Positions 2,231 through 58,162 are shown, counted from the first letter of the stretch. The stretch: DNA of 59,628 nucleotides from an uncultured Clostridia bacterium (GCA_944386345.1 CALXAR010000003.1:1-59628), one strand, 5' to 3'. Numbers and translations are program-made. Notes: a model not told the origin generated them from the letters alone.

Positions 2231-2257
2231 AGGAGATAAATTAATCTCCTTTTTTTT
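2229..2257 (+). terminator. Intrinsic terminator
   Basis: The stem AAAGGAGAT/ATCTCCTTT has a 6-base loop and is followed by a run of eight T's, directly after the 97-aa gene. Confidence 0.85.
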
Positions 2258-2282
2258 GTCAAAATTTTTGGTACGATTTTCT

Positions 2283-2311
2283 TTGACTTCTAATCATTGT
2301 GACGATATAAT
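2283..2311 (+). promoter_or_regulatory. Sigma-A promoter for the sortase-adhesin operon
   Basis: TTGACT (2283-2288) and TATAAT (2306-2311) with a 17-base spacer, 26 bases before the sortase start. Confidence 0.8.
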
Positions 2312-2336
2312 TATCTTGCCTAAAGGAGGTGAGAGT

Positions 2337-2873
2337 ATGTATGTAAAAAGAATTGTTTTATCGTTATTTTTTGTTTTATTAATTTTTTCTATTATTTATT
2401 TTTTTATTCCCCAAAACGAAAAAATAATTCCTAAAAAAATAAATCTAGATAATATAAATTTATATCAAGAAAATAGTACTTTTATTCAAAATGATATTTG
2501 GACTCTAACAATTGAAAAAATAAATTTAATTAATGTTCCCATCAAAGATAGTGTAGAAGAGGATATATTGGAAAATTATATTGGTCATTTCCCTATTAGT
2601 TCATATTATAATGGTAATGTATGTCTTGCAGCACATAACTCAGGATTTCTTATAAATTATTTTAAAGATTTAAATACTCTAGAATATAACGATGAGATTA
2701 AATATAATTATTATGGAAATATAAAAGTATATAAAGTGACAGAAAAGTATATTGTAGATGAAGAAGAACTTAATGTTTTAGCAGTTGATTTTAAAGATAA
2801 AATGACTCTAATAACATGCATAACTGGCTCACCTTCTAAGAGGCTATGTATAGAAGCTATTAGTAAGGAGTGA
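2337..2873 (+). CDS. Sortase (cysteine transpeptidase)
   Basis: A 178-residue membrane-anchored sortase. One N-terminal transmembrane segment (about residues 5-24) is followed by the catalytic beta-barrel. The triad is visible: His100 in 'LAAHNSG', Cys161 in 'TLITC' and Arg169 in 'PSKRL', with the usual spacing of Arg 8 residues after Cys. Sortases cleave LPxTG-type motifs and join proteins to peptidoglycan or to each other. The 'AAHNSG' and 'TLITCI' context resembles class D-like clostridial sortases, but the class is inferred. ATG at 2337 follows AAAGGAGGT (2322-2330); the longer frame to 2256 runs through the promoter. The thioester adhesin starts 4 bases after the stop and is the likely substrate, although its sorting signal is incomplete. 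Confidence 0.9.
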   Translation: MYVKRIVLSLFFVLLIFSIIYFFIPQNEKIIPKKINLDNINLYQENSTFIQNDIWTLTIEKINLINVPIKDSVEEDILENYIGHFPISSYYNGNVCLAAHNSGFLINYFKDLNTLEYNDEIKYNYYGNIKVYKVTEKYIVDEEELNVLAVDFKDKMTLITCITGSPSKRLCIEAISKE

Positions 2874-2877
2874 TTTA

Positions 2878-4443
2878 GTGGAAAAAATTTACCAATACAA
2901 AAATAATGTTATCACAACTATTCAAAAAAATAAAAGAAGGATTAACGCATATATAAGGCAGAGTAAAATAAGAAGAATAAAAGTATATATAATTCTTTTT
3001 TGCATGTTATTTACCTCACTTAATTCGGTATTTGCGCTTGAAAATGAAAATATATATTATGGCGAATATAAAATACAGTGCTTTAAAGACCCATATATGT
3101 ATATTAAATATAATGGAGTTATGCAGGCAAATTACGAGTATTATTATATAAAAGATGGAGCTGAGTATCCGGTATATTGTTTAAATCTTGGGTTAAAAGG
3201 TGCAGAAGATAACTATAATGGATATATAGTAAATGGAGATAAGAAAATTACTGATGAGAAACTTCAGCTTATTATTTTAAATTCATATCCATATAAGTCT
3301 GTTGAAGAGTTAGGCTTAAATAATATTCATGAAGCTAAGTTTGCTTCACAATTTGCAATTTGGTGTTATCTAGAAAATCTAAACTTAGATTTAATTGAGC
3401 CTATTAGCGATATGAATATAAAATTAGTTGAGACTATAAAAGAAATATATAACTGTATAAATGGAGATATTAACCAAAAGAGTGTAGATATTGAATTTAG
3501 TGTTAATTCACAAAATTTAGAGAAAATTGAAAATGAAGTATATTATACTAGAGAATTTTTAGTGACTAACAAAAAGAATATAATAAAAGTGGATGTGCTA
3601 AGTACAGATAGTAAAGCTAGAGTTATAAAGCTTTCTGATGATAAGTACAAGGTATGTGTTCCAGTAGAGATTGTTAAAGACGACTACAAGGTAAATCTTA
3701 AAGTTAATGTAAGTGCAAAAGAAAATGTTGCTCTTTTTGGTAAGACTACGATAGATGGATATCAAGATGTCGCAATTACTTTAAAAGATAATTTTGATTT
3801 GAACTTAGAAGAAACTATTTTATTTAATAAATATGAAACAAATATAAAAATTGTAAAAAAAGATAAAGATACAAATGATACACTAGAAGGAATAAAATAT
3901 GGTATTTATGATAAAGATAATAATATTTTGGGAGAATATTTAACAGATAAAAACGGTGTTATAGACTTTAGCCTGTTTTATCCTTCAAAAGAGAAAATAT
4001 ATATTAAAGAGCTTGATACAAAAGATGAGTATAAATTAGATTCTAATGTATATGAATATATAATTGAACCAAATACTAGTTTAAACTTAGAATACTTTAA
4101 TGAAAAAAAGAAAGGATATATTGAAATTATAAAAAAGAGTAAGGAGTATAATGAGCTTACTAAATTACCAGAAAATTCACCTTTAAAGGATGTATGTTTT
4201 GAGATTTTAGATGAAAATTATAATGTGATTGATAAATTAAAAACAGATGAGTATGGATATGCAAAATCTAAAGCGTTACCTTTAGGAAAGTATTATATTA
4301 AGGAGACTCAGACTAATAAACATTATAAGATAATGGATAAAGTAATAGAGGTTAATATTATAAAAGAAAATGATGAGGTTAATGTTCAGATATTAAATGA
4401 TAATGTGACAATAGAAGAAAAATTACCAGTAACAGGTAGATAA
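2878..4443 (+). CDS. Surface adhesin with Cys-Gln thioester domain and two CnaB-type domains; ends at LPVTG
   Basis: 521 residues starting at GTG (AAGGAG 6 bases upstream). A basic N-terminus and hydrophobic segment (about 36-53, ending 'SVFA') form a signal peptide. Residues about 60-190 are a thioester (TQXA-type) domain: Cys101 in 'YPVYCLN' and Gln158 in 'FASQFAIW' are the expected bond pair, used in the family to bind host amines covalently. Two CnaB/SpaA-like domains follow (about 320-405 and 410-515), each with the Lys ('IKIVKK', 'IEIIKK'), Glu ('YIKEL', 'YIKET') and Asn ('YFNEK', 'ILNDN') expected for an intramolecular isopeptide bond. The protein ends LPVTG-Arg-stop (516-521), with no hydrophobic anchor or basic tail. 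It is co-transcribed with the sortase directly upstream. Confidence 0.85.
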   Translation: MEKIYQYKNNVITTIQKNKRRINAYIRQSKIRRIKVYIILFCMLFTSLNSVFALENENIYYGEYKIQCFKDPYMYIKYNGVMQANYEYYYIKDGAEYPVYCLNLGLKGAEDNYNGYIVNGDKKITDEKLQLIILNSYPYKSVEELGLNNIHEAKFASQFAIWCYLENLNLDLIEPISDMNIKLVETIKEIYNCINGDINQKSVDIEFSVNSQNLEKIENEVYYTREFLVTNKKNIIKVDVLSTDSKARVIKLSDDKYKVCVPVEIVKDDYKVNLKVNVSAKENVALFGKTTIDGYQDVAITLKDNFDLNLEETILFNKYETNIKIVKKDKDTNDTLEGIKYGIYDKDNNILGEYLTDKNGVIDFSLFYPSKEKIYIKELDTKDEYKLDSNVYEYIIEPNTSLNLEYFNEKKKGYIEIIKKSKEYNELTKLPENSPLKDVCFEILDENYNVIDKLKTDEYGYAKSKALPLGKYYIKETQTNKHYKIMDKVIEVNIIKENDEVNVQILNDNVTIEEKLPVTGR

Positions 4444-11487: not shown

Positions 11488-11835
11488 ATGAGTTATTTAA
11501 TTTTCATTTTAATTGGAGCTATTAATGGACTTTTTTCTAGCGGAGCTGGTCAACTTCTTATATTTTATCTAGTATATATCTTAAAAAGAGATACTAAGCT
11601 TTCAAGAGAATATTCTCTTACAATAATGCCTATTATATCTATACCGACTTTTATAATATACTGCACAAAAAGTAGTATAGATATTACTATGAGTTTTATT
11701 TTTATAGTAATTTCTTTAGTATTTGGATTTTTAGGAAATAAGATGATGAAAAAACTTAATCCTAATTTATTAAATTTAATTTCAGGTATTTTCTTAGTTT
11801 TAATAACTGGAATTAGTCTATGGAGGACACTATGA
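11488..11835 (+). CDS. TauE/SafE (TSUP) exporter, N-terminal half-protein
   Basis: 115 residues with four hydrophobic helices. It opens with the TSUP repeat signature 'GLFSSGAGQ' between helices 1 and 2, and ends 'LISGIFLVLITGISLW', which matches the end of one TSUP repeat. Full TSUP permeases (sulfite, sulfoacetate or other anion exporters) are about 250 residues with two such repeats; here each repeat is a separate gene. No clear Shine-Dalgarno site precedes ATG 11488, so the start is the least certain part. The frame overlaps the second half by 4 bases (ATGA), typical of translational coupling. Substrate unknown. Confidence 0.8.
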   Translation: MSYLIFILIGAINGLFSSGAGQLLIFYLVYILKRDTKLSREYSLTIMPIISIPTFIIYCTKSSIDITMSFIFIVISLVFGFLGNKMMKKLNPNLLNLISGIFLVLITGISLWRTL

Positions 11836-12224
11836 TGATATATTTTTTAGCTATTATATCCTCGTTTTTTTCTGGTATGGGAATAGGTGGAGGATCGGTA
11901 TTTATACTTCTGAGTCTTCTTTTTAATCTATTGGAATTAAATGAAGCTAGAGCATATAATCTATTGCTTTTTATTAGTGTTGGAATAATTATATCTATAA
12001 AAAATTTTAAAAAAATTAAAGAGAATAAGAAAAAGTATATAAAAGGAATTATATTTATTGGAATTGGAGCGTTAATAGGCGCAATTTCTAGTAAATATAT
12101 TTCAGAAAAAATCATAAAAATTGTTTTTTATATTTTCCTTTTGATTATTGGAATATATGAAATAATTGTCAGTTTAAAAAATATTAATCTGGATAAAAAT
12201 AATAATAAGAAAGGAGTGTATTAA
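11832..12224 (+). CDS. TauE/SafE (TSUP) exporter, C-terminal half-protein
   Basis: 130 residues with four predicted membrane helices and the second TSUP repeat motif 'SGMGIGGGS' near the N-terminus, followed by 'ARAYNLLLF'. The ATG at 11832 overlaps the stop of the first half (ATGA), and GGAGG at 11822-11826 lies 5 bases upstream. This is the design of a separate coupled gene rather than a random frameshift. Together the halves (115 + 130 residues) equal one ordinary TSUP permease, so they probably assemble as a heterodimer in the membrane. A 45-codon gene follows after 1 base. Confidence 0.82.
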   Translation: MMIYFLAIISSFFSGMGIGGGSVFILLSLLFNLLELNEARAYNLLLFISVGIIISIKNFKKIKENKKKYIKGIIFIGIGALIGAISSKYISEKIIKIVFYIFLLIIGIYEIIVSLKNINLDKNNNKKGVY

Positions 12225-12447: not shown

Positions 12448-12476
12448 TTGATATTTGAAATTATTTATAATATAAT
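12448..12476 (+). promoter_or_regulatory. Sigma-A promoter for the VirB2-like gene
   Basis: TTGATA (12448-12453) and TATAAT (12471-12476), spacer 17, 45 bases before the start. A TTGACA at 12434-12439 lies just upstream but has no matching -10. Confidence 0.7.
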
Positions 12477-12520: not shown

Positions 12521-12841
12521 ATGGCATATAAAAAGGTTATAACTTCATCTTTAATTGTAGCTGTACTTTTAGCAATAGTAAATGAGTTTGTTTTTGCTGT
12601 TGATAACACAGTTACAAATGATGTTGTTTTAGATGGTGCTTTGAATATATTAGTTATGATACAAAAATATTCATGGCCTTTTGTTACTTTATTTATGATA
12701 TTTGCATTGTATAAGTTTTATGTACGTGGTTCAGAAATATTAGCAGATAAAGTAGTTGGACAACAAATGGTTGTTGGTATTTCAATATTTATGTTAGTTG
12801 TACAATGTTTACCATTAGTGTACGCGTTTTTTATAGTGTAG
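12521..12841 (+). CDS. VirB2/TrbC-like pilin candidate
   Basis: 106 residues. A classical signal peptide (residues 1-26, 'KKVITSS...FVFA', cleavage expected after FA-V) is followed by about 25 polar residues and two transmembrane helices (about 37-60 and 76-100) joined by a short charged loop ('VRGSEILADK'). This is the architecture of processed type IV secretion pilins of the VirB2/TrbC family. No prepilin peptidase motif (G|FTLxE) is present, so a type IV pilin is less likely; a small holin-like protein is the main alternative. GGGGGAG precedes ATG 12521; the longer frame to 12482 overlaps the promoter. It sits 60 bases upstream of a TadZ-like ATPase gene. Confidence 0.5.
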   Translation: MAYKKVITSSLIVAVLLAIVNEFVFAVDNTVTNDVVLDGALNILVMIQKYSWPFVTLFMIFALYKFYVRGSEILADKVVGQQMVVGISIFMLVVQCLPLVYAFFIV

Positions 12842-12901
12842 AGATAATATTATAATTAATATATAACCTAAAAACTAAATTGATTAGAAGGGATAGAGAA
12901 T

Positions 12902-14635
12902 ATGAAGGTACTTTTTGGATTAAGTAACGAAGATACTGTAAAAGGCATTGTTAAATTCTATGAAGATAAGTACAAAGAAAAGCTAGAGTATAAGATAGCA
13001 TATTATTTTAAAAACTTCAGTAGCGAAATCGCAACAGGAGATTATGATAGAGCAGTACTTAGTGAAGAGTTAGAAAAAATGCCGACAAAGAGCTACGCAG
13101 AAGCAGATAAATTATTATTTGAATATATAGATGGTATTACAAATAATTTTGAGGCAAGAAATTTAATATTAATTACATCAGAAAGAAGAAAATTAGGAGA
13201 TAACTTTCTTGCTAGATTATTTGTACTTGGTGTATACACAACACTTACAGGCTCAGATAGAACAAAAGGAAAAGTTTGTGCGGCTATTAATTCACCTACT
13301 ACTAAAAAAGAAGCTAGAAGGTATTACGATAATAATACAAGTGCAACAGATGTATACAATTCATCTGAAGTAAGTGAGTTAGAACTTAGAAGAATAATAA
13401 CATATTTTAAAAACTTAAATGGCGATACAAGCAAGTATTGTGAGATATTTGATAGAGTAGTTTCTCAATATACAACAGAGCAAATGGCGGTAATTATTAA
13501 GTGTTTACCAAAAGATGTAACTGCTTTTTTACAGGACAATAGTGAGTCATATAAAAATATAGTTAACTTATCTAATATACAGATGACACAATCTCCTGTA
13601 CAGCAGACAAAAATAGTAACAAATGAGCCTAATAATAATAAGTATGAGATAAAAAATGGAAATGAAATTGCAGAAAAAATCGTAGTAAAAGAAGTACCAA
13701 AGGAAAAGATAGTTGAAAAAGTAGTAGAAAAAGAAGTACCAAAAGTTATTACACAAGTAGTAGAAAAAGAAGTAGTAAAACAATATTTTGATGTTCCAAA
13801 AGACTATAAGAAAACTGTATGTTTTGTTGGAGCACCTAAAGTTGGAACTACATTTTGTATAAATGCAATAGGAACATATCTTGCAAAGCAAAAAGTAAAG
13901 ACTGCTTTTGTAGATTTAACTAGAAAAAGAGATATGTACACAATATATACATATGATAATACAGGAAAAAGAAATATAGCTGGAGACAGTTTAAGATATG
14001 CATCTAATGGAAAAAATGAGCCATTAATTTATGATAAGCTAAGTATATATACAGCTGTACCTGGTGAAGATAGAAAGTCATATAATCCAAGTGTATTAGT
14101 AAACACAATAGTAAAAAATAACAATGTTGTTTTAATAGATGCAGATTTTAGTACACCTTTAGATTATTTTAGACTTGCTCAAGACATATATATTGTACAG
14201 GATATGAATATACTTAATATAAGTCAGATTACAATGTTTTTAAGAGAGCTAAAGCAACGTGGAATAGGCATGGATAAAATAAAGATAATTATTAATAAAT
14301 ATGTTAATTGTAGTTTATCTTCAAAAGACATTGTTGATGGTATAGCAACATATACTAGTTATGACTTAAAAATGTATGATGAATTATTCAATCCAAAGAG
14401 AATTCAGTATTTTATATTACCTTTTGATGTAGAAAACTATAAGAAATATATTGATATGGTATATAAATACTCAAATAAATTCTCAAGCTTTACTAAAGAC
14501 TTTCAGGAAAATTTAAATCAAATTATAAACACAATTTATCCTACTAAGGGTGATGTTAGTGTTGAAGAAAAACATTATACTCAAGAAGAAAGTCAAAAGA
14601 GTAAAGGAAAATTTAGTTTGTTTAGAAGAAAATAA
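12902..14635 (+). CDS. TadZ/CpaE-like protein: receiver-like domain plus degenerate MinD-type ATPase
   Basis: 577 residues in three parts. Residues about 1-150 resemble a receiver-like Rossmann domain ('VLFGLSNEDTVKGIV', 'NLILITSERR'). About 225-300 is a linker of Val/Lys/Glu repeats ('KEVPKEKIVEKVVEKEV'). About 303-550 is a SIMIBI/MinD-type ATPase with a deviant Walker A 'GAPKVGTT' that lacks the usual GKS/T lysine arrangement, 'AFVDLTRK' at the A' position and 'VVLIDAD' as Walker B. TadZ/CpaE proteins with this architecture position pilus or secretion machines in the cytoplasm. The C-terminus is a Lys/Arg-rich tail. It follows the pilin candidate and precedes ireB after 40 bases. The assignment is by architecture; a ParA-like role in another system is possible. 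Confidence 0.6.
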   Translation: MKVLFGLSNEDTVKGIVKFYEDKYKEKLEYKIAYYFKNFSSEIATGDYDRAVLSEELEKMPTKSYAEADKLLFEYIDGITNNFEARNLILITSERRKLGDNFLARLFVLGVYTTLTGSDRTKGKVCAAINSPTTKKEARRYYDNNTSATDVYNSSEVSELELRRIITYFKNLNGDTSKYCEIFDRVVSQYTTEQMAVIIKCLPKDVTAFLQDNSESYKNIVNLSNIQMTQSPVQQTKIVTNEPNNNKYEIKNGNEIAEKIVVKEVPKEKIVEKVVEKEVPKVITQVVEKEVVKQYFDVPKDYKKTVCFVGAPKVGTTFCINAIGTYLAKQKVKTAFVDLTRKRDMYTIYTYDNTGKRNIAGDSLRYASNGKNEPLIYDKLSIYTAVPGEDRKSYNPSVLVNTIVKNNNVVLIDADFSTPLDYFRLAQDIYIVQDMNILNISQITMFLRELKQRGIGMDKIKIIINKYVNCSLSSKDIVDGIATYTSYDLKMYDELFNPKRIQYFILPFDVENYKKYIDMVYKYSNKFSSFTKDFQENLNQIINTIYPTKGDVSVEEKHYTQEESQKSKGKFSLFRRK

Positions 14636-14675: not shown

Positions 14676-14921
14676 ATGGATCAAAATACTACAGTATTTA
14701 AACCACAAAAAGATGAATCAAAAAGAGTAAAGGAGATTATGGAGCAAGTTGTAGCAGCTTTAAAAGATAAAGGCTATGAGCCAACTAGCCAGATTATTGG
14801 ATATATATTATCTGGTGACCCAACATATATAACATCTCACAATAATGCAAGAGCTTTAATTTGCAAGATTGAAAGAGATGACCTGTTACAAGAAATGATT
14901 AAAAAATACTTAGATTTATAG
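14676..14921 (+). CDS. ireB: IreB family regulatory phosphoprotein (UPF0297)
   Basis: 81 residues, full family length, with hallmark 'QIIGYILSGDPTYITSHNNARALI' segments split by the conserved 'SGDPTYI' motif, and an N-terminal Thr pair ('DQNTTVF') of the kind phosphorylated in IreB. In enterococci IreB is a target of the PASTA kinase IreK that tunes cephalosporin resistance and wall homeostasis. AGGAG at 14661-14665 fits ATG 14676. The order ireB-ruvX-DUF1292 is the conserved Firmicutes arrangement, but alaS, usually just upstream, is missing here and the TadZ-like gene takes its place. Confidence 0.93.
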   Translation: MDQNTTVFKPQKDESKRVKEIMEQVVAALKDKGYEPTSQIIGYILSGDPTYITSHNNARALICKIERDDLLQEMIKKYLDL

Positions 14922-14928
14922 GTGTAAA

Positions 14929-15351
14929 ATGAAAAGAATATTAGGAATAGACTATGGAGATGTGAGGGTAGGAGTTGCAATATCTGATCCTTTAAGAATA
15001 ACAGCTCAAGGACTAGATACTCTTGTAATTAATGGTAGTGATAAGAAATTTATTAGTGGAATTAGAAAACTAATGAATGAGTATGATTTTGAAGAGGTTG
15101 TTATTGGTTATCCTAAAAATATGGATGGTACAAATTCTTTAAAAACAGAGAAAGTAGATGAGTTGATTCCAAAGTTAGAAGCTTTAGGACTTAAAGTGCA
15201 TAAATGGGATGAAAGACTTACTACAGTATCAGCATATAGAACAATGAGAGAGATGAATATATCTCAAAAGGAAAAAAATAGAGTTGCAGATAGATTTGCT
15301 GCAACATATATTTTAGAAGGATATTTAAATATGCTTTCAAAAAGCAATTAA
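14929..15351 (+). CDS. ruvX: Putative pre-16S rRNA nuclease / Holliday junction resolvase RuvX (YqgF)
   Basis: 140 residues with an RNase H-like fold and all family motifs: 'GIDYGDVRVGVA' (first catalytic Asp), 'VVIGYPKNMDGT' and 'DERLTTV' (Glu), and the last Asp in 'VADRFAATYILEGYL'. YqgF trims the 5' end of 16S rRNA and is related to RuvC-type resolvases. It starts 7 bases after ireB, so co-transcription is likely, and the cytoplasmic DUF1292 gene follows after 33 bases. Confidence 0.95.
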   Translation: MKRILGIDYGDVRVGVAISDPLRITAQGLDTLVINGSDKKFISGIRKLMNEYDFEEVVIGYPKNMDGTNSLKTEKVDELIPKLEALGLKVHKWDERLTTVSAYRTMREMNISQKEKNRVADRFAATYILEGYLNMLSKSN

Positions 15352-28057: not shown

Positions 28058-28074
28058 TTAGTTGGTGATATATG

Positions 28075-29148
28075 ATGTATAAAGAGGTAACAAAAGTTGA
28101 ATGTGATACTAAGGAGCTATTCTCAAAAAGAGATGAAGAAGGATATATCATACTAGATGATAAGATATCTGAGTTTACTCCAGAATCAAGAGAGAGAATC
28201 GGTAGTGAGTTTAGACTTAAAAATTGGATAGAGACAAATGATGGAAAACAATTTTTAGTAAAAAGCAACAATAAAATGGATGATAAAGAAAATTATACAG
28301 AATATGCAGAGCTAATCTCTAGAAAAGTAGCACAAAAGATGGGACTTGAATATGCAAACTATGATATAATGAAATTTAATGGTCAAAAAGGTGTTATAAC
28401 AGAAAATATGTTAAATAAGGATGAATATTTAATTACTCTTCAAGATATAATTGACTCTGAAATAGCACATCCAGACGCTGGAAATACTACAATAGATTAT
28501 CCAAACTTACTTAAATTAATAGATAAAAATCTTAGTTTGCTAGGATATGAGAAAGAAGATATAGACAATATTAAAAAAGAATTTAAAAAAAGAGTAATGT
28601 TTGATAGTATTGTTGGAGCAACAGATAGACATCCTGAAAATATTAGCTTTGTATTAAATACTAAAGATAGTAAATCAATAAAGCTTTCTCCTATTTATGA
28701 TACAGAAAATTCTCTTCTACTTGAAAATGCAAAAGATGTAGTTATAGATTTTGCTTGTTCTCAAGATGGTGGTGCAAGACATGCACGTGACATATATCCT
28801 ATGATCTCATTTATTCCAAATAAAAATGCTGAAGTAGATGAGATAGATATGGCTACATTCGAATTTAGTACGTATTCAAATAAAGAAAATGATTATGAAT
28901 TAGAAGATTTTGCTGGAGAGCAATTAATAGCTCTAAATCCTGATGAGATAATAAAAGAGGTGGAAGATGATATAAATGCACCTTTACCATATGAAGTTAG
29001 CACTGTAGTTAGAACTTGTCTAAAAACTAGAATTAATGAATTTAAAAAAATAATGTGTGGAGAAGTAGAAGTAAATTATGATGAAGATTATATAAGGAGA
29101 GTACAAGATTATTTTGAAAAACAAGCTAGAGATAAAGAAGAAATATAA
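28075..29148 (+). CDS. HipA-like Ser/Thr kinase without the N-terminal subdomain
   Basis: 357 residues with HipA-type kinase hallmarks. The ATP-binding Lys is Lys63 ('KQFLVK'), followed by 'YTEYAELISRKVAQKMGLE' as in HipA proteins. The catalytic loop is 'GATDRHPEN' (Asp184, Asn189) and the metal Asp is Asp209 in 'LSPIYDTENS'. HipA kinases phosphorylate translation factors or tRNA synthetases, and CtkA is a related eukaryote-like kinase. The usual HipA N1 subdomain is absent and no hipB-type antitoxin gene is adjacent. GGTGAT favours the second ATG (28075). A small protein with its own promoter follows on the same strand. A toxin role is not proven; a signalling kinase is equally possible. Confidence 0.75.
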   Translation: MYKEVTKVECDTKELFSKRDEEGYIILDDKISEFTPESRERIGSEFRLKNWIETNDGKQFLVKSNNKMDDKENYTEYAELISRKVAQKMGLEYANYDIMKFNGQKGVITENMLNKDEYLITLQDIIDSEIAHPDAGNTTIDYPNLLKLIDKNLSLLGYEKEDIDNIKKEFKKRVMFDSIVGATDRHPENISFVLNTKDSKSIKLSPIYDTENSLLLENAKDVVIDFACSQDGGARHARDIYPMISFIPNKNAEVDEIDMATFEFSTYSNKENDYELEDFAGEQLIALNPDEIIKEVEDDINAPLPYEVSTVVRTCLKTRINEFKKIMCGEVEVNYDEDYIRRVQDYFEKQARDKEEI

Positions 29149-45173: not shown

Positions 45174-45270
45174 GCTAAATTTAGAACATATTTTTATATA
45201 TATAATTTCTTTTTCTACAAATTATACATTTAGTAAGTAGTATAACTTTACTATATAAGAGGTGGTTATT

Positions 45271-46179
45271 ATGATAGATGAAATATTAAGGGTATTGCCA
45301 AGCTATATTTCAAATGAAATCATAAAGTTAAATTGTAGCCAGAACATAACTGAAATTAGACTTAGAACTAAATGTAAAGTGATACTTATTTGTGGAAAAA
45401 ACGAAATGGTTTTAAATTGTATCGTTACGCCTAAAACTATACTAGATATTTTATTAAACGTATCTAAAAATTCGATATATGCTATACAAAATGATATAAA
45501 TAATGGATTTGTTGTAATTAGAGGAGGTCATAGAATAGGAATAAGTGGAGAGGTTGTATATGTTGACGATAAGATAAAAAATATAAAGAATATTTGTAGT
45601 TTAAATATTCGTGTGGCAAGACAGATATATGGATGTGCGGATTTAGTACTACCTAAAATTATATCTGGTAATACCTTTTTAAATACTCTAATTGTATCTC
45701 CTCCTGGATGTGGTAAAACAACTCTAATAAGAGATATTATAAGACAAATTAGCAATGGGATTCCATCGTTAAATTTTAAGGGGAAAAATGTAGCTTTAAT
45801 AGATGAAAGAGGAGAGATTGCCTCAGTATATGAAGGGATACCTAGTTTGGATGTTGGAATTAGAACGGATATAATGAGTAATGTAAATAAAGCGTCAGGA
45901 ATGAAGATGATGATTCGCTCTATGGCACCAGATATAGTTGCAACTGATGAGATAGGCAAAAAAGAAGACATTGTAGCAATTAAAGAAGCAATACTTTCAG
46001 GAGTTAAAGTAATATTTACAATGCATGGAGACTCAATCAAGAGTATATTAAAAAATGAAAATATAAAAGAACTACTCAATTTGAATATATTTTCTAAAAT
46101 TATTTTACTATCTAACGGGAAGATACCAGGTATTATTGAAAAGGTGTATGATACAGAAAAATTAGGAGGTGTTGCATGA
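45271..46179 (+). CDS. spoIIIAA: Stage III sporulation protein AA (ATPase)
   Basis: 302 residues. A secretion-type ATPase with Walker A 'PPGCGKTTLIRD', the conserved 'ALIDERGEIASVYEG' and a Walker B-like 'DIVATDEIGKKED'. In the mother cell it powers or assembles the SpoIIIA-SpoIIQ feeding-tube channel into the forespore and is related to type II/IV secretion ATPases. AAGAGGTGG fits ATG 45271 rather than GTG 45262. The eight spoIIIA genes follow without interruption; in B. subtilis the operon is sigma-E driven, but no sigma-E promoter could be picked out confidently in the AT-rich leader (45174-45260). Confidence 0.95.
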   Translation: MIDEILRVLPSYISNEIIKLNCSQNITEIRLRTKCKVILICGKNEMVLNCIVTPKTILDILLNVSKNSIYAIQNDINNGFVVIRGGHRIGISGEVVYVDDKIKNIKNICSLNIRVARQIYGCADLVLPKIISGNTFLNTLIVSPPGCGKTTLIRDIIRQISNGIPSLNFKGKNVALIDERGEIASVYEGIPSLDVGIRTDIMSNVNKASGMKMMIRSMAPDIVATDEIGKKEDIVAIKEAILSGVKVIFTMHGDSIKSILKNENIKELLNLNIFSKIILLSNGKIPGIIEKVYDTEKLGGVA

Positions 46180-46691
46180 TATTTATAAAAATAATTATTT
46201 CTATAGCAATTTTATGTATAACATCTTATATAGGAATTGAAATGTCTAAGTCTCTAAAAGCTAGAGAAGAGATATTAACAGATTTTATTACCTTTTTAAG
46301 ACTTTTGCAAAATGAAATGATATATATGGCTAATAGCTTACCAGTATCTTTTGAAATATCTAGGCAAAGACTAAGCTCAAGGTTAAAAGATGTAATAGGT
46401 GCAATAGCACTTGATATCTCTGAGTATGGAAGCAATAAGGTCGACATGAGTATAACAAATAATGTTAATACATTAGAAGAATTAAATGATTATGATAAGG
46501 ATATAATTATATCTACGCTAAAGAACTTAGGAAGAAGTGATATTGATTCACAAAATAACATTATAGAAAATGCTATTTGCATAATACAAAAACAAATTAA
46601 AGAGGCAAATACTAATAAAGTAAAAAGCTCAAAAGTATATAAAACAGTAGGAGTTATTACAGGACTAATTATAGTTGTTATATTCATATAA
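46176..46691 (+). CDS. spoIIIAB: Stage III sporulation protein AB
   Basis: 171 residues with N- and C-terminal membrane helices (about 3-20 and 153-170) around a helical, GspF-like cytoplasmic domain. 'EEILTDFITFLRLLQNEM' and 'LNDYDKDIIISTLKNLGRSD' (core 'LKNLGRSD') are family marks. SpoIIIAB is thought to anchor the AA ATPase at the membrane. The start overlaps spoIIIAA by 4 bases (ATGA), indicating translational coupling. Confidence 0.93.
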   Translation: MIFIKIIISIAILCITSYIGIEMSKSLKAREEILTDFITFLRLLQNEMIYMANSLPVSFEISRQRLSSRLKDVIGAIALDISEYGSNKVDMSITNNVNTLEELNDYDKDIIISTLKNLGRSDIDSQNNIIENAICIIQKQIKEANTNKVKSSKVYKTVGVITGLIIVVIFI

Positions 46692-46703
46692 GGAGGAATG
46701 CGT

Positions 46704-46898
46704 ATGGATATAGATTTATTATTTAAAATAGCAGGAGTTGGAATACTAGTTGCAGTACTTAATCAAGTATTATCAAAGGCAGGAAGAGAAGATCAAGCTA
46801 TGATGACAACTCTTACTGGAGTTATAATCGTTCTTATGATGGTTATTTCTAAAATAAGTGAGCTATTTAATACTGTTAGAGATACTTTTAATTTATAG
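46704..46898 (+). CDS. spoIIIAC: Stage III sporulation protein AC
   Basis: 64 residues with two membrane helices, the family's whole size. 'LFKIAGVGILVAVLNQVLSKAGREDQAMM' (core 'GREDQA') is diagnostic. It forms part of the membrane ring of the SpoIIIA channel with AD. ATG 46704 is 7 bases after AGGAGG; the first ATG (46698) is too close to it. spoIIIAD follows after 9 bases. Confidence 0.95.
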   Translation: MDIDLLFKIAGVGILVAVLNQVLSKAGREDQAMMTTLTGVIIVLMMVISKISELFNTVRDTFNL

Positions 46899-46907
46899 GA
46901 GAAAAAT

Positions 46908-47291
46908 ATGACTTTATTTAAAATAGTAGGATTTGGAATAATTGCAGTATCACTAATTATTATTCTTAAAAACCAACGTCCTGAGATAGCACTTATGTGT
47001 ATTGTGGCTTCATCTGTAATAATTTTGCTATTTGTTTTTGATGAACTAAAAAATATTATTGATTTAATAAATTCACTAATGGCTAATTCTTCTATTGATA
47101 GTACATATATAAAAATTATACTAAAGGTAATAGGTATTACATATATAATTGAATTTGGAAAAGATATATGTAAAGATGCAGGAGAGAGTGCAATAGCAAA
47201 TAAGATTGAGCTTGCTGGAAAAGTAATAATAGTGTCACTATCTATCCCAGTTGTTGCTTCACTTGTAGATATTGTCACTCAAATTGTATGA
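46908..47291 (+). CDS. spoIIIAD: Stage III sporulation protein AD
   Basis: 127 residues with four predicted helices. The family motif 'LKNQRPEIALM' at about residue 24 and 'FGKDICKDAGESAIANKIELAGK' (core 'CKDAGESAIA') are diagnostic. Together with SpoIIIAC it builds the membrane platform of the forespore channel. It overlaps spoIIIAE by 4 bases (ATGA). Confidence 0.95.
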   Translation: MTLFKIVGFGIIAVSLIIILKNQRPEIALMCIVASSVIILLFVFDELKNIIDLINSLMANSSIDSTYIKIILKVIGITYIIEFGKDICKDAGESAIANKIELAGKVIIVSLSIPVVASLVDIVTQIV

Positions 47292-48442
47292 TGAAAAAAG
47301 CTTTTAAATTATTAATATTATATATATGTATAGCATACTTTTTTAGCTTTAATGCTTTTGCAGAAGAATTAGATGTTACTAAAAATGTTTCTGAGAGCTT
47401 AGATGTAGATAAATATATAAATGTATTTGAAGAGTATATAGAAGAATATAATCTAGAGGAATTTAGTCCTTCAAATCTTTATTCTAATCTAGTTTCAGGT
47501 AAAGGAATAGATTATGAAAATATTATAGATACTTTTGCTTCAAATTTAGTTGTTCAAGTAAAAGAAAGTATTAATAGTGTAACTACAATTTTTGTAATCA
47601 TAATTGTTATGGCTATCTTATCAAGTTTAGAGTTAGACAAAAATAGTGACATAGTAAAGATAAGTAAACTTATAGTACTAATTTGTGTCGGCTCAATATT
47701 ACTAAAAAATTATATTGAGATATTAGAAATGTTTAGAAACTTAGTAAACACTTTAGGATATATAATGCAGATAGTCTCTACTTTTTTGATGGGAATTTTA
47801 GTTGCAAGTGGGAAGATAGCTTCAACAGGAATAATACAACCATTACTTTTGTTTATAGCAAATTTTATATGTGTTGTTACACAATATGTAGTAATTCCAT
47901 TTTTTACAATCTCAATTGTAATTAATATTGTCTCTAAGATATCTGAGAATATAAGAATGGATGAGTTATCAGGTTTATTTAGAAAATCTTCATTGTATAT
48001 TTTTAGCTCTGTTATTGCCATATTTATTTTAATACTCTCTATGGAGTCTTCTGTAACTAAGTCAATAGATAGTGTGTATTTTAAAGCAACACAGAGTGTA
48101 GTTTCAAATGTAGTTCCAGTTGTAGGAAAATTTTTATCTGATAGTCTTGATATCGTGCTAGGAGCAACAGAGCTGATTGGAAAGGTAGGTGGAGCCGTTG
48201 CATTAGTATCCGTTATTTTAATAGTTAGTATTCCAATTATTAAACTAGTGGTAATTGTTGTTTTATACAAGTTGTTAACAGCACTAAGTGAACCAATAAA
48301 TTCTGATAAGACGATTTCTTCATTTATAAATGGATTTACAAAAGTATACAAAGATATGTTGGGTGTTTTAATTGGAATAATGGTACTATTTGTAATGTCT
48401 ACAGGAATAATAATGGGAATTATTAGCACAATAAGTGAATAG
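47288..48442 (+). CDS. spoIIIAE: Stage III sporulation protein AE
   Basis: 384 residues. A signal peptide (about 1-26, ending 'AFAEE') is followed by a polar helix and seven or more membrane helices; 'GVLIGIMVLFVMSTGIIMG' closes the protein as in the family. It is the large membrane subunit of the SpoIIIA channel. The start overlaps spoIIIAD (ATGA), so translation is coupled; a second ATG at 47291 is possible. Confidence 0.93.
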   Translation: MMKKAFKLLILYICIAYFFSFNAFAEELDVTKNVSESLDVDKYINVFEEYIEEYNLEEFSPSNLYSNLVSGKGIDYENIIDTFASNLVVQVKESINSVTTIFVIIIVMAILSSLELDKNSDIVKISKLIVLICVGSILLKNYIEILEMFRNLVNTLGYIMQIVSTFLMGILVASGKIASTGIIQPLLLFIANFICVVTQYVVIPFFTISIVINIVSKISENIRMDELSGLFRKSSLYIFSSVIAIFILILSMESSVTKSIDSVYFKATQSVVSNVVPVVGKFLSDSLDIVLGATELIGKVGGAVALVSVILIVSIPIIKLVVIVVLYKLLTALSEPINSDKTISSFINGFTKVYKDMLGVLIGIMVLFVMSTGIIMGIISTISE

Positions 48443-48455
48443 GGGGGGGATATAT

Positions 48456-48956
48456 GTGTTAGATGTCTTTAAAAATTGGATAAGTTCTATTTTGGCAATT
48501 GGTATTTTATTTACAATTATAAGAATAATTTTGCCTAATTCACATTTTAAAAAATATATTTATTCTCTTATTGGAATAGTTACAATAATTGTAATAATTA
48601 GTCCTGTAATTTCAGCAGTAAAATCTACTAATTTTGATAATATAAAAGACATAGTTTTAAATGCTACTAATATAGATAGCTCTGATGTAAATTATACAAA
48701 TCTATCTAATTACGAAGATGTTAATGAAAATAATGTAAAGAAGAATTTTATTACTAGTGTTGAAAATGATATAAAAGAGAAGCTATCAAGTAATATTGAT
48801 AATAATGTAGATGTAAATATAGAAATAACCGATACATATAATATAGAAAAAATAAATATTACTTTGTATGGAGAAACTTCCTTTGACATTTTGTCTTTTA
48901 TTAGTGAAGAATATGATATAGGAAAAGATAAAATTAATTTACAAAGGGGAGATTAA
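48456..48956 (+). CDS. spoIIIAF: Stage III sporulation protein AF
   Basis: 166 residues. Two N-terminal membrane helices (about 8-26 and 33-52) precede an extracytoplasmic ring-building (RBM) domain at the C-terminus ('VDVNIEITDTYNIEKINITLYG' region). 'KNWISSILAIGILFTIIRIILPN' at the N-terminus (core 'LAIGILF') is typical. The start is GTG 48456, 6 bases after an unusual ribosome site made of eight G's (48442-48449). It ends 2 bases before spoIIIAG. Confidence 0.9.
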   Translation: MLDVFKNWISSILAIGILFTIIRIILPNSHFKKYIYSLIGIVTIIVIISPVISAVKSTNFDNIKDIVLNATNIDSSDVNYTNLSNYEDVNENNVKKNFITSVENDIKEKLSSNIDNNVDVNIEITDTYNIEKINITLYGETSFDILSFISEEYDIGKDKINLQRGD

Positions 48957-48958
48957 TT

Positions 48959-49489
48959 ATGAACTATTTAGATACATTAAAAAATATAACTAAGGACTCA
49001 AAAAGAAAAAGAGAAAACTTAATTTTATTATTAGTGCTATTAGTAATACTTTTAATAAGTATTAACTATATATTTAAAGAGGATAAAAGTGAGAATGAAA
49101 CAGTAGTTGAAGAAGAGATTAAAGAACAAAAAAGCGATACTGTAAGCTTAGAAGAAAAGCTTTCAGAGATAATAAATCAAATATCTGGTATTACAGAAGC
49201 ATCAATAGTTATTAATTACTCAAATAATGGTAGTAATGATATTGTATATGATACGAAAGAGACCTTAAATGAACAGGGAAATGTTCTTAGTGTGGAAAGA
49301 AGTGTTGCATATAACGAAGAGAATGGCAATAAAACTGCAATTATACAAATGTATAATATGCCAACTGTTGAGGGAGTAATAATTGTAGGTAAAGGAGTTG
49401 AAAGTGCTGATGTTAAACAAAAATTATCCACTGCTATAGGAAATTTACTAGGAATTGCATCATATAAAGTACAGGTTTTTGAAAAATAG
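48959..49489 (+). CDS. spoIIIAG: Stage III sporulation protein AG
   Basis: 176 residues. One membrane helix (about 20-38) is followed by a charged linker and a RBM domain ('LEEKLSEIINQISGITEASIVINYS', core 'ISGITEASIVI'; 'GVIIVGKGVESADVKQKLSTAIGNLLGI', core 'GVIIVGKG'). In B. subtilis SpoIIIAG forms a 30-subunit ring in the space between mother cell and forespore. The next gene's ribosome site overlaps its stop. Confidence 0.95.
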   Translation: MNYLDTLKNITKDSKRKRENLILLLVLLVILLISINYIFKEDKSENETVVEEEIKEQKSDTVSLEEKLSEIINQISGITEASIVINYSNNGSNDIVYDTKETLNEQGNVLSVERSVAYNEENGNKTAIIQMYNMPTVEGVIIVGKGVESADVKQKLSTAIGNLLGIASYKVQVFEK

Positions 49490-49502
49490 GAGGTTAGTTA
49501 GT

Positions 49503-50039
49503 TTGAAAAATAAAGAAAAAATAAAAAGATTATCAATGGCGGCTCTTTCATTTTGCTTTATGCTAGCAATAGCAGGATATATAAATTATAAGTATAATCC
49601 AGAAAGAGAAAAAGATCTTGGGCAAACAGTTTATGTTAATTCAAACAGTGATGAGGTTGATATATATAAAGAAGAAAATTTAGAGGAAGATAAGATAACG
49701 TCATTTAGAAATGATAGAGATAATATGTACTCAGAGCTTGCAAATAATTACTCTGAGATAATAAATAATGAAAATTCAAGTGAAGAGACCATAACAGAGT
49801 ATCAACAAAAGCTAAGTGCTTTAATAGAAGAAAAAAATCAAGTGTTAATGGTTGAAAATATAATAAAATCAAAAGGGGTTGAAGACATTGTAATAGTATT
49901 AACAAATAGTCAAAAAGCAAATGTTATTGTAAAAGCAGAGGAGATAACAGAGAGTTTAGCTGCTCAAATAATGCAGACAATTGTTGACCAATTGAATATA
50001 GATGTAAATAATATTACCATAGAAAATGTTAATATGTGA
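49503..50039 (+). CDS. spoIIIAH: Stage III sporulation protein AH
   Basis: 178 residues. One N-terminal membrane helix (about 9-27), an acidic linker and a C-terminal YscJ/FliF-like RBM domain ('IENIIKSKGVEDIVIVLTNSQKANVIVKA', core 'KGVEDIVIVL'). SpoIIIAH binds SpoIIQ from the forespore side to complete the channel. The start is TTG 49503, 9 bases after AGGAGG (49488-49493); an upstream frame to 49455 overlaps spoIIIAG. A hairpin terminator follows and ends the operon. Confidence 0.93.
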   Translation: MKNKEKIKRLSMAALSFCFMLAIAGYINYKYNPEREKDLGQTVYVNSNSDEVDIYKEENLEEDKITSFRNDRDNMYSELANNYSEIINNENSSEETITEYQQKLSALIEEKNQVLMVENIIKSKGVEDIVIVLTNSQKANVIVKAEEITESLAAQIMQTIVDQLNIDVNNITIENVNM

Positions 50040-51203: not shown

Positions 51204-51287
51204 ACTTTATATTATTTAAAATATAATCATTATTTGGTATAATTACTATATAAATATTTTTACTATGGTATTATGGAGGGATATTAT

Positions 51288-51848
51288 ATGAATGAGCAAA
51301 AGTTACCTATAGGAGAAGAATTCATAAGAAGAAAGATACTTACAAAAAAAGATGTTAATATAGTTTTAAATTATCAAAACGAGCATTCAGAGCTAAAGTT
51401 TGGTGAGATTGTTGATGTTTTAGACATGTGCGATAAAAAGGATTTACTTGAAGTCTTATCTTCAAATTTAAATGTAAAATCTGCAATGATTGATAGAAAA
51501 CTATCTATAAATCCTTTAAATTTTTTACCATCTGATATAATAATTACTTATAGAGCACTTCCTTTTGAAAAACAAGGAGATACAGTACTTATTGCCTTTG
51601 CAAATCCACAAGATACAAAAACAGTAGAATATGTCAGAGAGTTAATAAAAAAAGAGGGATATGATATAGAGGTGTATATTACACTTTATACTACTATAAT
51701 GGCTCATATTGAAAAGATTAAAAACTCTAAAACTATTAGAATGTGTTTTAGTGATACTAAAGCAGACCCAGAGATTAAAGATGAAGATATAGATAACACA
51801 ATAATAGAAGATGTAAAAAAAGAGTGCAAAAAAAAGCAAAGAAAGTAA
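51288..51848 (+). CDS. Stand-alone MshEN (GspE N-terminal) domain protein
   Basis: 186 residues without an ATPase domain. Residues 1-130 match the MshEN/T2SSE N-domain: the first motif 'IGEEFIRRKILTKKDVNIVLNYQ' (core 'ILTKKDV', cf. RLGxxLxxxGxIxxxQL) and a second 'FGEIVDVLDMCDKKDLLEVLSS' (core 'CDKKDLLEVL'), then 'LPFEKQGDTVLIAFANPQD' as in GspE N-domains. In full GspE/PilB ATPases this domain docks to the membrane platform and in MshE it binds c-di-GMP; the key Arg of 'RLG' is Ile here ('PIG'), so c-di-GMP binding is doubtful. A Lys-rich tail follows. GGAGGG fits ATG 51288. Confidence 0.75.
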   Translation: MNEQKLPIGEEFIRRKILTKKDVNIVLNYQNEHSELKFGEIVDVLDMCDKKDLLEVLSSNLNVKSAMIDRKLSINPLNFLPSDIIITYRALPFEKQGDTVLIAFANPQDTKTVEYVRELIKKEGYDIEVYITLYTTIMAHIEKIKNSKTIRMCFSDTKADPEIKDEDIDNTIIEDVKKECKKKQRK

Positions 51849-55472: not shown

Positions 55473-55605
55473 TATAATACGCTTATAAAAATGATTATTA
55501 AACATCGAAGTTTTAGAAAAGATGTTTAATAAAGAAAAGAGTATTACAAATGAGATTACTCTATATACAAAAAACTCTCTTACTTAATTGTAAGAGAGTT
55601 AATTT
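55473..55605 (+). ncRNA. Candidate small RNA with three hairpins (unproven)
   Basis: A -10 TATAAT (55473-55478) with no good -35 is followed by three hairpins without an open frame: TTATTAAACATC/GATGTTTAATAA (55495-55532, 12 bp), AGAGTA/TACTCT (55538-55562) and AACTCTCTTAC/GTAAGAGAGTT (55573-55600). The third also serves the minus-strand gene. No gene fills the 361 bases between secA and that gene. It could be a regulatory RNA or only stacked terminators. Confidence 0.3.
55573..55600 (-). terminator. Terminator of the VirD4-like gene
   Basis: AACTCTCTTAC/GTAAGAGAGTT with a 6-base loop; on the minus strand T's follow it (TTTTTGTATA). It begins 4 bases beyond the stop codon. Confidence 0.85.
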
Positions 55606-58088: not shown

Positions 58089-58162
58089 AACGAAATCACC
58101 ACTTTCAGTAATATAAATAGTTATCAAACGTCTAATTGACATATTAAACTAATTCATATATA

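Follow-up and report, generated by a model that had tools for sequence, protein, structure and literature searches.

Two adjacent genes of an uncultured Clostridia bacterium, one for a small secreted protein and the other for an ATPase resembling TadZ, raise the question of whether they serve a secretion machine and, if so, which one. They lie in a stretch of 59,628 nucleotides (GCA_944386345.1, CALXAR010000003.1:1-59628), the whole of which was analysed and is referred to here as the window; it is contig C3 of a 1.29 Mb genome that is in 66 contigs and 95.7% complete. The organism belongs to an order of small-genome, mostly gut, uncultured Clostridia, which is probably GTDB TANB77 (CAG-508 and kin), and it was compared within a sample of 143 genomes of the order from 33 genera and five families (f1–f5; the source genome is G000). 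Both open reading frames are present where the initial annotation had placed them, and both have plausible ribosome-binding sites. The features of the locus are as follows.

12448–12476, + strand: TTGATA-17-TATAAT, a promoter-like site (11/12 matches) 5′ of the small gene
12521–12841, + strand: small secreted or membrane protein, 106 aa, with a signal peptide and a two-helix hairpin; T4SS-pilin-like, homology to VirB2 unsettled
12902–14635, + strand: TadZ1, a TadZ/CpaE-like protein of 577 aa (receiver-like domain 1–225, linker, MinD-like domain 301–549)
13829–13852, + strand: deviant P-loop GAPKVGTT of TadZ1 (residues 310–317), found order-wide
14676–14921, + strand: ireB (IreB, PF06135, E 1e-35), 40 bp 3′ of TadZ1
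14929–15351, + strand: ruvX (RuvX, PF03652, E 1e-38), a conserved neighbour

TadZ1 is a TadZ-like ATPase with an atypical P-loop

An AlphaFold model of TadZ1, made with its homologues from the order, has an alpha/beta receiver-like domain at residues 1–225, a disordered Val/Lys/Glu linker at 227–300 and a MinD/ParA-like domain at 301–549. All 28 order homologues that were aligned have an atypical Walker A motif (GxxKxGT[TS]) in which threonine takes the place of the Walker lysine, and G310, K313, G315 and T316 are invariant among them. The receiver-like domain, the linker, the MinD-type ATPase and the deviant GAPKVGTT, all proposed at the outset, are therefore present in the model and the alignment.

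The nearest solved structures are ParA/MinD proteins, with ParA/MinD domains matching at TMt 0.65–0.73. A match that includes both domains is to 3fkq of Eubacterium rectale, presumably a TadZ, over 507 columns (E 2.3e-5); the low TM-scores (0.25 and 0.39) and an rmsd of 24 indicate that the domains are positioned differently in the two proteins. Sequence searches of Pfam, NCBIfam and the PDB gave no relevant family match, those in the PDB being to low-complexity linkers only, and the tie to the TadZ/CpaE family runs solely through structure and through TadZ2, a second ATPase encoded beside VirB4 in the same genome (see below). Profile-profile comparison aligns TadZ1 and TadZ2 end to end through both domains (361 columns, Prob 95%, E 4e-8). 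The call of a TadZ-like protein is upheld by the two-domain match to 3fkq, the MinD fold and the replacement of the P-loop lysine by threonine. There is no gene for CpaF, TadB/TadC or a Flp pilin at the TadZ1 locus in the window.

We note that in some f3 genomes TadZ1 is enlarged between its domains to ~1,050–1,350 aa (L041:9202-12984, L043:6277-10305, L044:5792-9856). Several f3 loci, together with L047, also have a gene for an extra membrane protein of ~360 aa between TadZ1 and ireB, one of which has a weak match to GGDEF.

The small protein resembles a pilin in topology

The small protein begins with a signal-peptide-like sequence (KK...VFA), and its AlphaFold model, made with order homologues, has an N-terminal helix followed by a hairpin of two helices (residues 35–69 and 74–105; pLDDT 82). 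It has no match among PDB folds (best E 2.4), and none to Pfam or NCBIfam families, although three of its 34 homologues reach Pfam T4SS_pilin below threshold in the mature part of the protein (best 1.8e-5).

Comparison with a VirB2 profile by hhalign gave a Prob of 83%, with reversed and PrgI controls below 1.5%, and an assignment as VirB2 was initially favoured on this basis. The assignment was downgraded because it was mostly the leader peptide that aligned, and without the leader the Prob falls to 2–8%. This trimmed comparison has little power, since two sets of pilins that both match T4SS_pilin, from the two type IV secretion systems (T4SSs) described below as systems 1 and 2, score only 0.4–0.7% against each other when treated in the same way. 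The small protein reaches 35% (E 4e-4) with the system 2 pilins, in an alignment within the hairpin. Of the VirB2-like pilin that had been proposed, the signal peptide and two-helix topology stand, both in the sequence and in the model, and there are the few contacts with T4SS_pilin; the homology is weak and only suggestive, the VirB2 match being mostly signal peptide. This genome has a clearer VirB2 gene on contig C45, beside VirB6 and PrgI.

The promoter-like site upstream of the small gene is the best of 28 such sites in the region, but it is no more than suggestive because their number does not exceed that in shuffled sequences.

The pair is conserved across the order and under purifying selection

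TadZ1 is found in 141 of the 143 order genomes, usually as one copy per genome. It is nearly order-specific: in a class-wide sample of 391 genomes it occurs in 18 members of the order, with one strong and two weak matches outside it. Among 84,980 species genomes scanned with TadZ1 there are 532 related stretches, and the best 78 of these are from metagenome assemblies of uncultured Clostridia, Clostridium or Eubacteriales, many from animal gut. The small gene lies immediately 5′ of TadZ1 in nearly all loci examined, in all five families, with a gap that is usually 3–100 bp. Between related species dN/dS is 0.02–0.09 for TadZ1 and 0.01–0.06 for the small protein, values similar to or lower than those of ruvX; both proteins are under strong purifying selection.

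The position of the pair directly upstream of ireB-ruvX is confirmed by profiles, and alaS is not upstream. In most families ireB adjoins TadZ1, and in f2 genomes the pair is beside the ATP synthase operon rather than ahead of ireB. As the initial annotation had it, no mobile-element gene is seen at the locus. In the source genome the two genes adjoin no secretion gene, and G040, where two tandem VirD4a genes are next to TadZ1, is the sole genome in which such adjacency was seen.

Other genes in the window

On the 5′ side of the pair (11488–12224) a TauE/SafE-type transporter is encoded as two short open reading frames in swapped order, the first matching the Pfam model in its C-terminal half and the second in its N-terminal half, and this arrangement is kept in relatives. 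A sortase gene followed by one for a thioester-domain/SpaA surface protein ending in LPVTG (2256–4443) forms an adhesin-like pair. There is also a HipA-like kinase (28072–29148; PF07804, E 8e-12) with no obvious adjoining HipB partner, and a stand-alone MshEN domain protein (51273–51848; PF05157, E 3e-9), a domain that is normally the nucleotide-sensing front of a type IV pilus ATPase. A group of genes at 45262–50039, including one for a SpoIIIAA-like ATPase (45262–46179), has the appearance of a SpoIIIA-like operon and suggests a spore former or the relic of one.

Type IV secretion genes are dispersed among housekeeping genes

The genome contains a set of type IV secretion genes, here called system 1, not in one mobile locus but on three contigs among housekeeping genes.

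55605–58142 of the window, − strand: VirD4a, a TraG/VirD4-type coupling ATPase of 845 aa, between secA and pth
G000:C36:2773-4443: ATPase part of VirB4 (P-loop_TraG 1.4e-11, AAA_10 2.6e-10; NCBIfam VirB4_plasma 4e-50, conju_CD1110 6e-38)
C45:7309-7647: PrgI/VirB3-like protein (blastp 6e-8 to an f2 small membrane protein encoded directly 5′ of VirB4N)
G000:C45:7634-8440: VirB6-type protein (profile E 1.1e-30 against the order-wide family)
C45:8440-8763: VirB2-like pilin (TrbC 5.5e-5, T4SS_pilin 8.5e-5, both under the curated cut-off)

VirD4a matches T4SS-DNA_transf (PF02534, E 2.5e-10), TraG-D_C (1.6e-8) and NCBIfam conju_CD1115 (E 3.8e-12). It is present in 131 of the 143 order genomes, almost always as a single copy and, in f1 and f5, usually beside pth. 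A search of the source genome with PF03135 (CagE_TrbE_VirB) gave no VirB4, whereas the P-loop_TraG profile did detect it (44–49 bits), and its Walker A and B motifs are intact; VirB4 of either type is encoded by 137 of the 143 genomes. On C36 it is preceded by a 207-aa protein, which from its position is the N-terminal part of VirB4, and followed by TadZ2, which has a classical P-loop, and a 230-aa protein (G000:C36 (L085):5544-6236). The last is found in many order genomes and has no meaningful Pfam match.

The C45 genes are in a row with gyrA, dnaC and dnaD, in the order gyrA, dnaC, dnaD, PrgI-like, VirB6-like, VirB2-like; two further genes separate gyrA from dnaC. The corresponding row in relatives reads VirD4b-VirB2-VirB6-PrgI-dnaD-dnaC. 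VirB6, found in 121 of the 143 genomes including this one, is named partly by synteny because one f3 member matches TrbL weakly (0.044). The PrgI-like protein is named by synteny, topology and a chain of homology because it has no Pfam or NCBIfam PrgI match. T4SS_pilin is matched by all 15 members of the VirB2 family (best 6.9e-10) and TrbC/VirB2 by seven of them. In G094 (f3; L126) the VirB4 set is flanked by dnaA-dnaN-recF-gyrB on one side and gyrA on the other, and the VirB2-VirB6 row is close by on the far side of gyrA; in other f3 loci the VirB4 set is beside or between gyrase genes.

Genomes of f4 and f5, and some of f1, encode a CpaF/VirB11 ATPase (T2SSE 3e-25) after TadZ2, together with a T2SSF-like membrane protein. 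VirD4b, CpaF and the T2SSF-like gene are absent from the source genome and its near relatives, and CpaF also from nearly all f3 genomes; the absence of the three from the source lineage is most simply explained by loss. There is no PF03432-type relaxase in the source genome, and since it is sporadic among relatives (18 of 57 genomes, in four of 16 genera) it is outside the core set. Co-occurrence of the pair with VirB4 and VirB6 genes in related genomes, the absence of which was to have counted against a secretion role, is found.

The secretion genes and the pair are vertically inherited

Pairwise divergences of TadZ1, the small protein, VirD4a and VirB4 are correlated among 19 genomes (rho 0.68–0.83, above 300 of 300 permutations; this replaces a run with nine genomes, which was too small), as vertical inheritance predicts. 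With the exception of the small gene, which adjoins TadZ1, these genes are separated by 41 kb or lie on separate contigs. The same test against IreB and Pth gives rho of 0.47–0.60, and the higher values among the secretion parts may come from longer, faster-evolving proteins. VirB4 (dN/dS 0.11–0.26) evolves faster than TadZ1, and all parts are under purifying selection. The vertical fixation envisaged in the initial annotation is thus borne out by order-wide presence, almost always in single copy, and by housekeeping contexts, low dN/dS and correlated divergence. Its description of the pair as the seed of a machine is right in that the pair is fixed but inexact otherwise, the core parts of a machine being already present and their genes scattered.

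Does the pair serve the dispersed T4SS?

We consider it somewhat more likely than not that the pair belongs, with the scattered parts, to one chromosomally fixed, vertically inherited T4SS that has no common PF03432-type relaxase. In favour are the end-to-end alignment of TadZ1 with TadZ2, the tandem VirD4a genes next to TadZ1 in G040, the matches of a few small-protein homologues to T4SS_pilin below threshold, and plasmid pVpro (see below), whose T4SS locus also has two TadZ-like ATPases. Membership is inferred, because at least 11 relatives that are without system 1 keep TadZ1. These f3 genomes (G065, G075, G089–G092, G095, G103, G105, G110 and G138) have TadZ1 and VirD4a without the system 1 VirB6, VirD4b or a strong match to the system 1 VirB4, and in three of them (G075, G091 and G092) a single-sequence query gave no VirB4, possibly a miss. 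Because conservation is higher for TadZ1 than for the T4SS, co-occurrence alone proves little. G095 (L302) and G110 (L301) carry a different, clustered T4SS, so that TadZ1 could serve either machine.

This second T4SS (system 2), which was not detected in the source genome, is present in many relatives (L298–L303, in G035, G031, G014, G110, G095 and G033), with at least two VirB2-like pilins (T4SS_pilin/TrbC), PrgI, a two-part VirB4 and VirB6-like genes; L298 also encodes a VirB1-like protein with M23 and lysozyme domains.

The same observations bear on the alternative of a separate module, in which TadZ1 would be a MinD-type organiser and the small protein its membrane anchor. The two would act with IreB, on which the cell-wall kinase IreK acts, perhaps to mark a pole or in division or envelope signalling, and the T4SS would be core for unrelated reasons. 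The operon-like position before ireB-ruvX is fixed in most families, and TadZ1 is kept where system 1 is missing and is the most widespread of the set; on the other hand, some of the genomes without system 1 carry the second T4SS, and the f2 pair is near the ATP synthase operon. TadZ1 is moreover similar throughout its length to the TadZ2 encoded after VirB4, the signature of the small protein is in part pilin-like, and the divergence of the pair tracks VirD4a and VirB4 somewhat more closely than IreB or Pth. We regard a separate module as unlikely, though it deserves to be kept in mind. A reduced Tad-like (Flp) pilus, composed of TadZ1 and TadZ2, the CpaF-type ATPase and the T2SSF-like protein with the small protein as pilin, is improbable: the latter two genes do follow TadZ2 in f4, f5 and part of f1, yet TadZ1 and the small protein persist without CpaF here and in nearly all f3 genomes, the small protein, with its two helices and a leader like those cut by signal peptidase I, is not a Flp prepilin, and the cluster is centred on VirB4, with PrgI, VirB6 and VirB2 elsewhere in the set.

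Two further readings are given very little weight. The MinD/ParA fold would suit a ParA that partitions chromosomes or plasmids, encoded next to a holin-like protein, but the P-loop lysine is replaced in all homologues, the N-terminal domain is receiver-like, and this is a single-copy core gene with no ParB or phage neighbours seen, which makes a partition role highly improbable. It is just as hard to credit that the genes are decaying remnants of an integrated conjugative element, as might be thought from the related gene set on plasmid pVpro (see below) and the parts missing from the source lineage; this reading is largely refuted by conservation and selection, the genes being held in conserved housekeeping contexts in five families with dN/dS of 0.01–0.26, with ATPase motifs intact and no integrase or relaxase nearby.

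If the pair does serve the fixed T4SS, TadZ1 would be a placement or scaffold protein: the MinD-like part, whose P-loop is permanently non-classical, would sit at the cell pole or at a site on the membrane, and the receiver-like part would recruit the VirD4 and VirB4 ATPases, by analogy with TadZ in Tad pili and VirC1/ParA-type proteins in other T4SSs. The small protein, its signal peptide removed, would be a pilin-like membrane subunit or an anchor of the TadZ1 site; VirB4 would power a VirB6/VirB3/VirB2 pore, and VirD4a would hand over DNA or protein as the substrate to an adjacent cell. VirD4 and a Replic_Relax-like (PF13814) winged-helix protein, present once per genome in 100 of the 143 genomes and not detected in the source genome, lean slightly towards DNA. 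A more tentative proposal, which we think possible rather than probable, is that the whole order depends on a domesticated T4SS for cell contact, either kin DNA exchange or effector delivery by analogy with Patescibacteria, with TadZ1 and the small protein as a universal placement and pilin-like module shared by the two T4SSs.

The Replic_Relax-like gene (L304–L317) is a single-copy core gene across most of the order. Where it is beside VirD4a it was considered as a dedicated relaxosome partner, and this was rejected because in many genomes it lies apart from VirD4a, as a rule close to a gene with an S1 domain. VirD4 on a Vescimonas plasmid (L294) likewise has an S1 gene as a neighbour.

Comparison with known systems

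TadZ/CpaE proteins of Tad (Flp) pili such as 3fkq share with TadZ1 the receiver-like and MinD-like domains and a non-classical P-loop, but the window has no Tad locus and the linker of TadZ1 is long and variable, giving a total of >1,300 aa in some f3 genomes. A ParA/MinD-type protein is also needed by the gonococcal chromosomal T4SS, which differs in having a relaxase and ParB (PMC8716806).

The gene set is comparable to that of a T4SS on plasmid pVpro of Vallitalea pronyensis (NZ_CP058650), which encodes a VirB2-like pilin, PrgI, a split VirB4, two TadZ-like ATPases, CpaF (34% identity, 1e-46), a T2SSF-like protein and VirD4. That system differs in being plasmid-borne and mostly in one locus, with genes for an M23 peptidase and a SAF-domain protein, and it has no close sequence identity to TadZ1 and no small/TadZ1/ireB arrangement.

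The archaeal Ced and Ted systems are domesticated chromosomal VirB2/VirB4/VirB6 machines for DNA transfer, and Ted loci carry a VirC1/ParA-like gene (PMC9905601). The Clostridia genes share the chromosomal, domesticated VirB2/VirB4/VirB6 set and the ParA-like gene, and differ in including VirD4 and PrgI and in belonging to another domain of life.

The closest described case, in gene content and context, is the T4SS of Patescibacteria (MPF_FATA-like), which is chromosomal, widespread in a lineage of reduced genomes and mostly relaxase-less, is near dnaA/dnaN in several classes with VirD4 usually encoded far away, and has VirB4 with a separate N-terminal-like TrsD, PrgI, VirB6 and VirB2-like pilins (PF04956/PF18895) (PMC12102498). 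Both systems are chromosomal, in reduced genomes, mostly relaxase-less (as judged by PF03432 in the Clostridia) and close to replication genes, with a split VirB4, PrgI, VirB6, VirB2-like pilins and a distant VirD4. The order described here differs in its Clostridia hosts, in the greater scatter of the parts, in having two TadZ-like ATPases and in the CpaF/VirB11 ATPase and T2SSF-like protein that some of its families add.

Most descriptions of T4SSs in Gram-positive bacteria concern parts of mobile elements. According to a 2025 review, these systems lack VirB2 pilins except in Patescibacteria (PMC12857230). We found no report of a T4SS in this order in the open-licence literature. What appears new is an order-wide Clostridia version of a known kind of T4SS, which is not a conjugative element, together with two unnamed protein families. 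A fixed T4SS could provide a built-in passage for DNA or protein to other cells, and if this reading is correct it would be a second bacterial case of T4SS domestication, with VirB2-like pilins and replication-gene linkage in common gut Clostridia, would offer a testable account of how small-genome bacteria interact with their neighbours, and would give a likely role to two protein families unnamed in any library.
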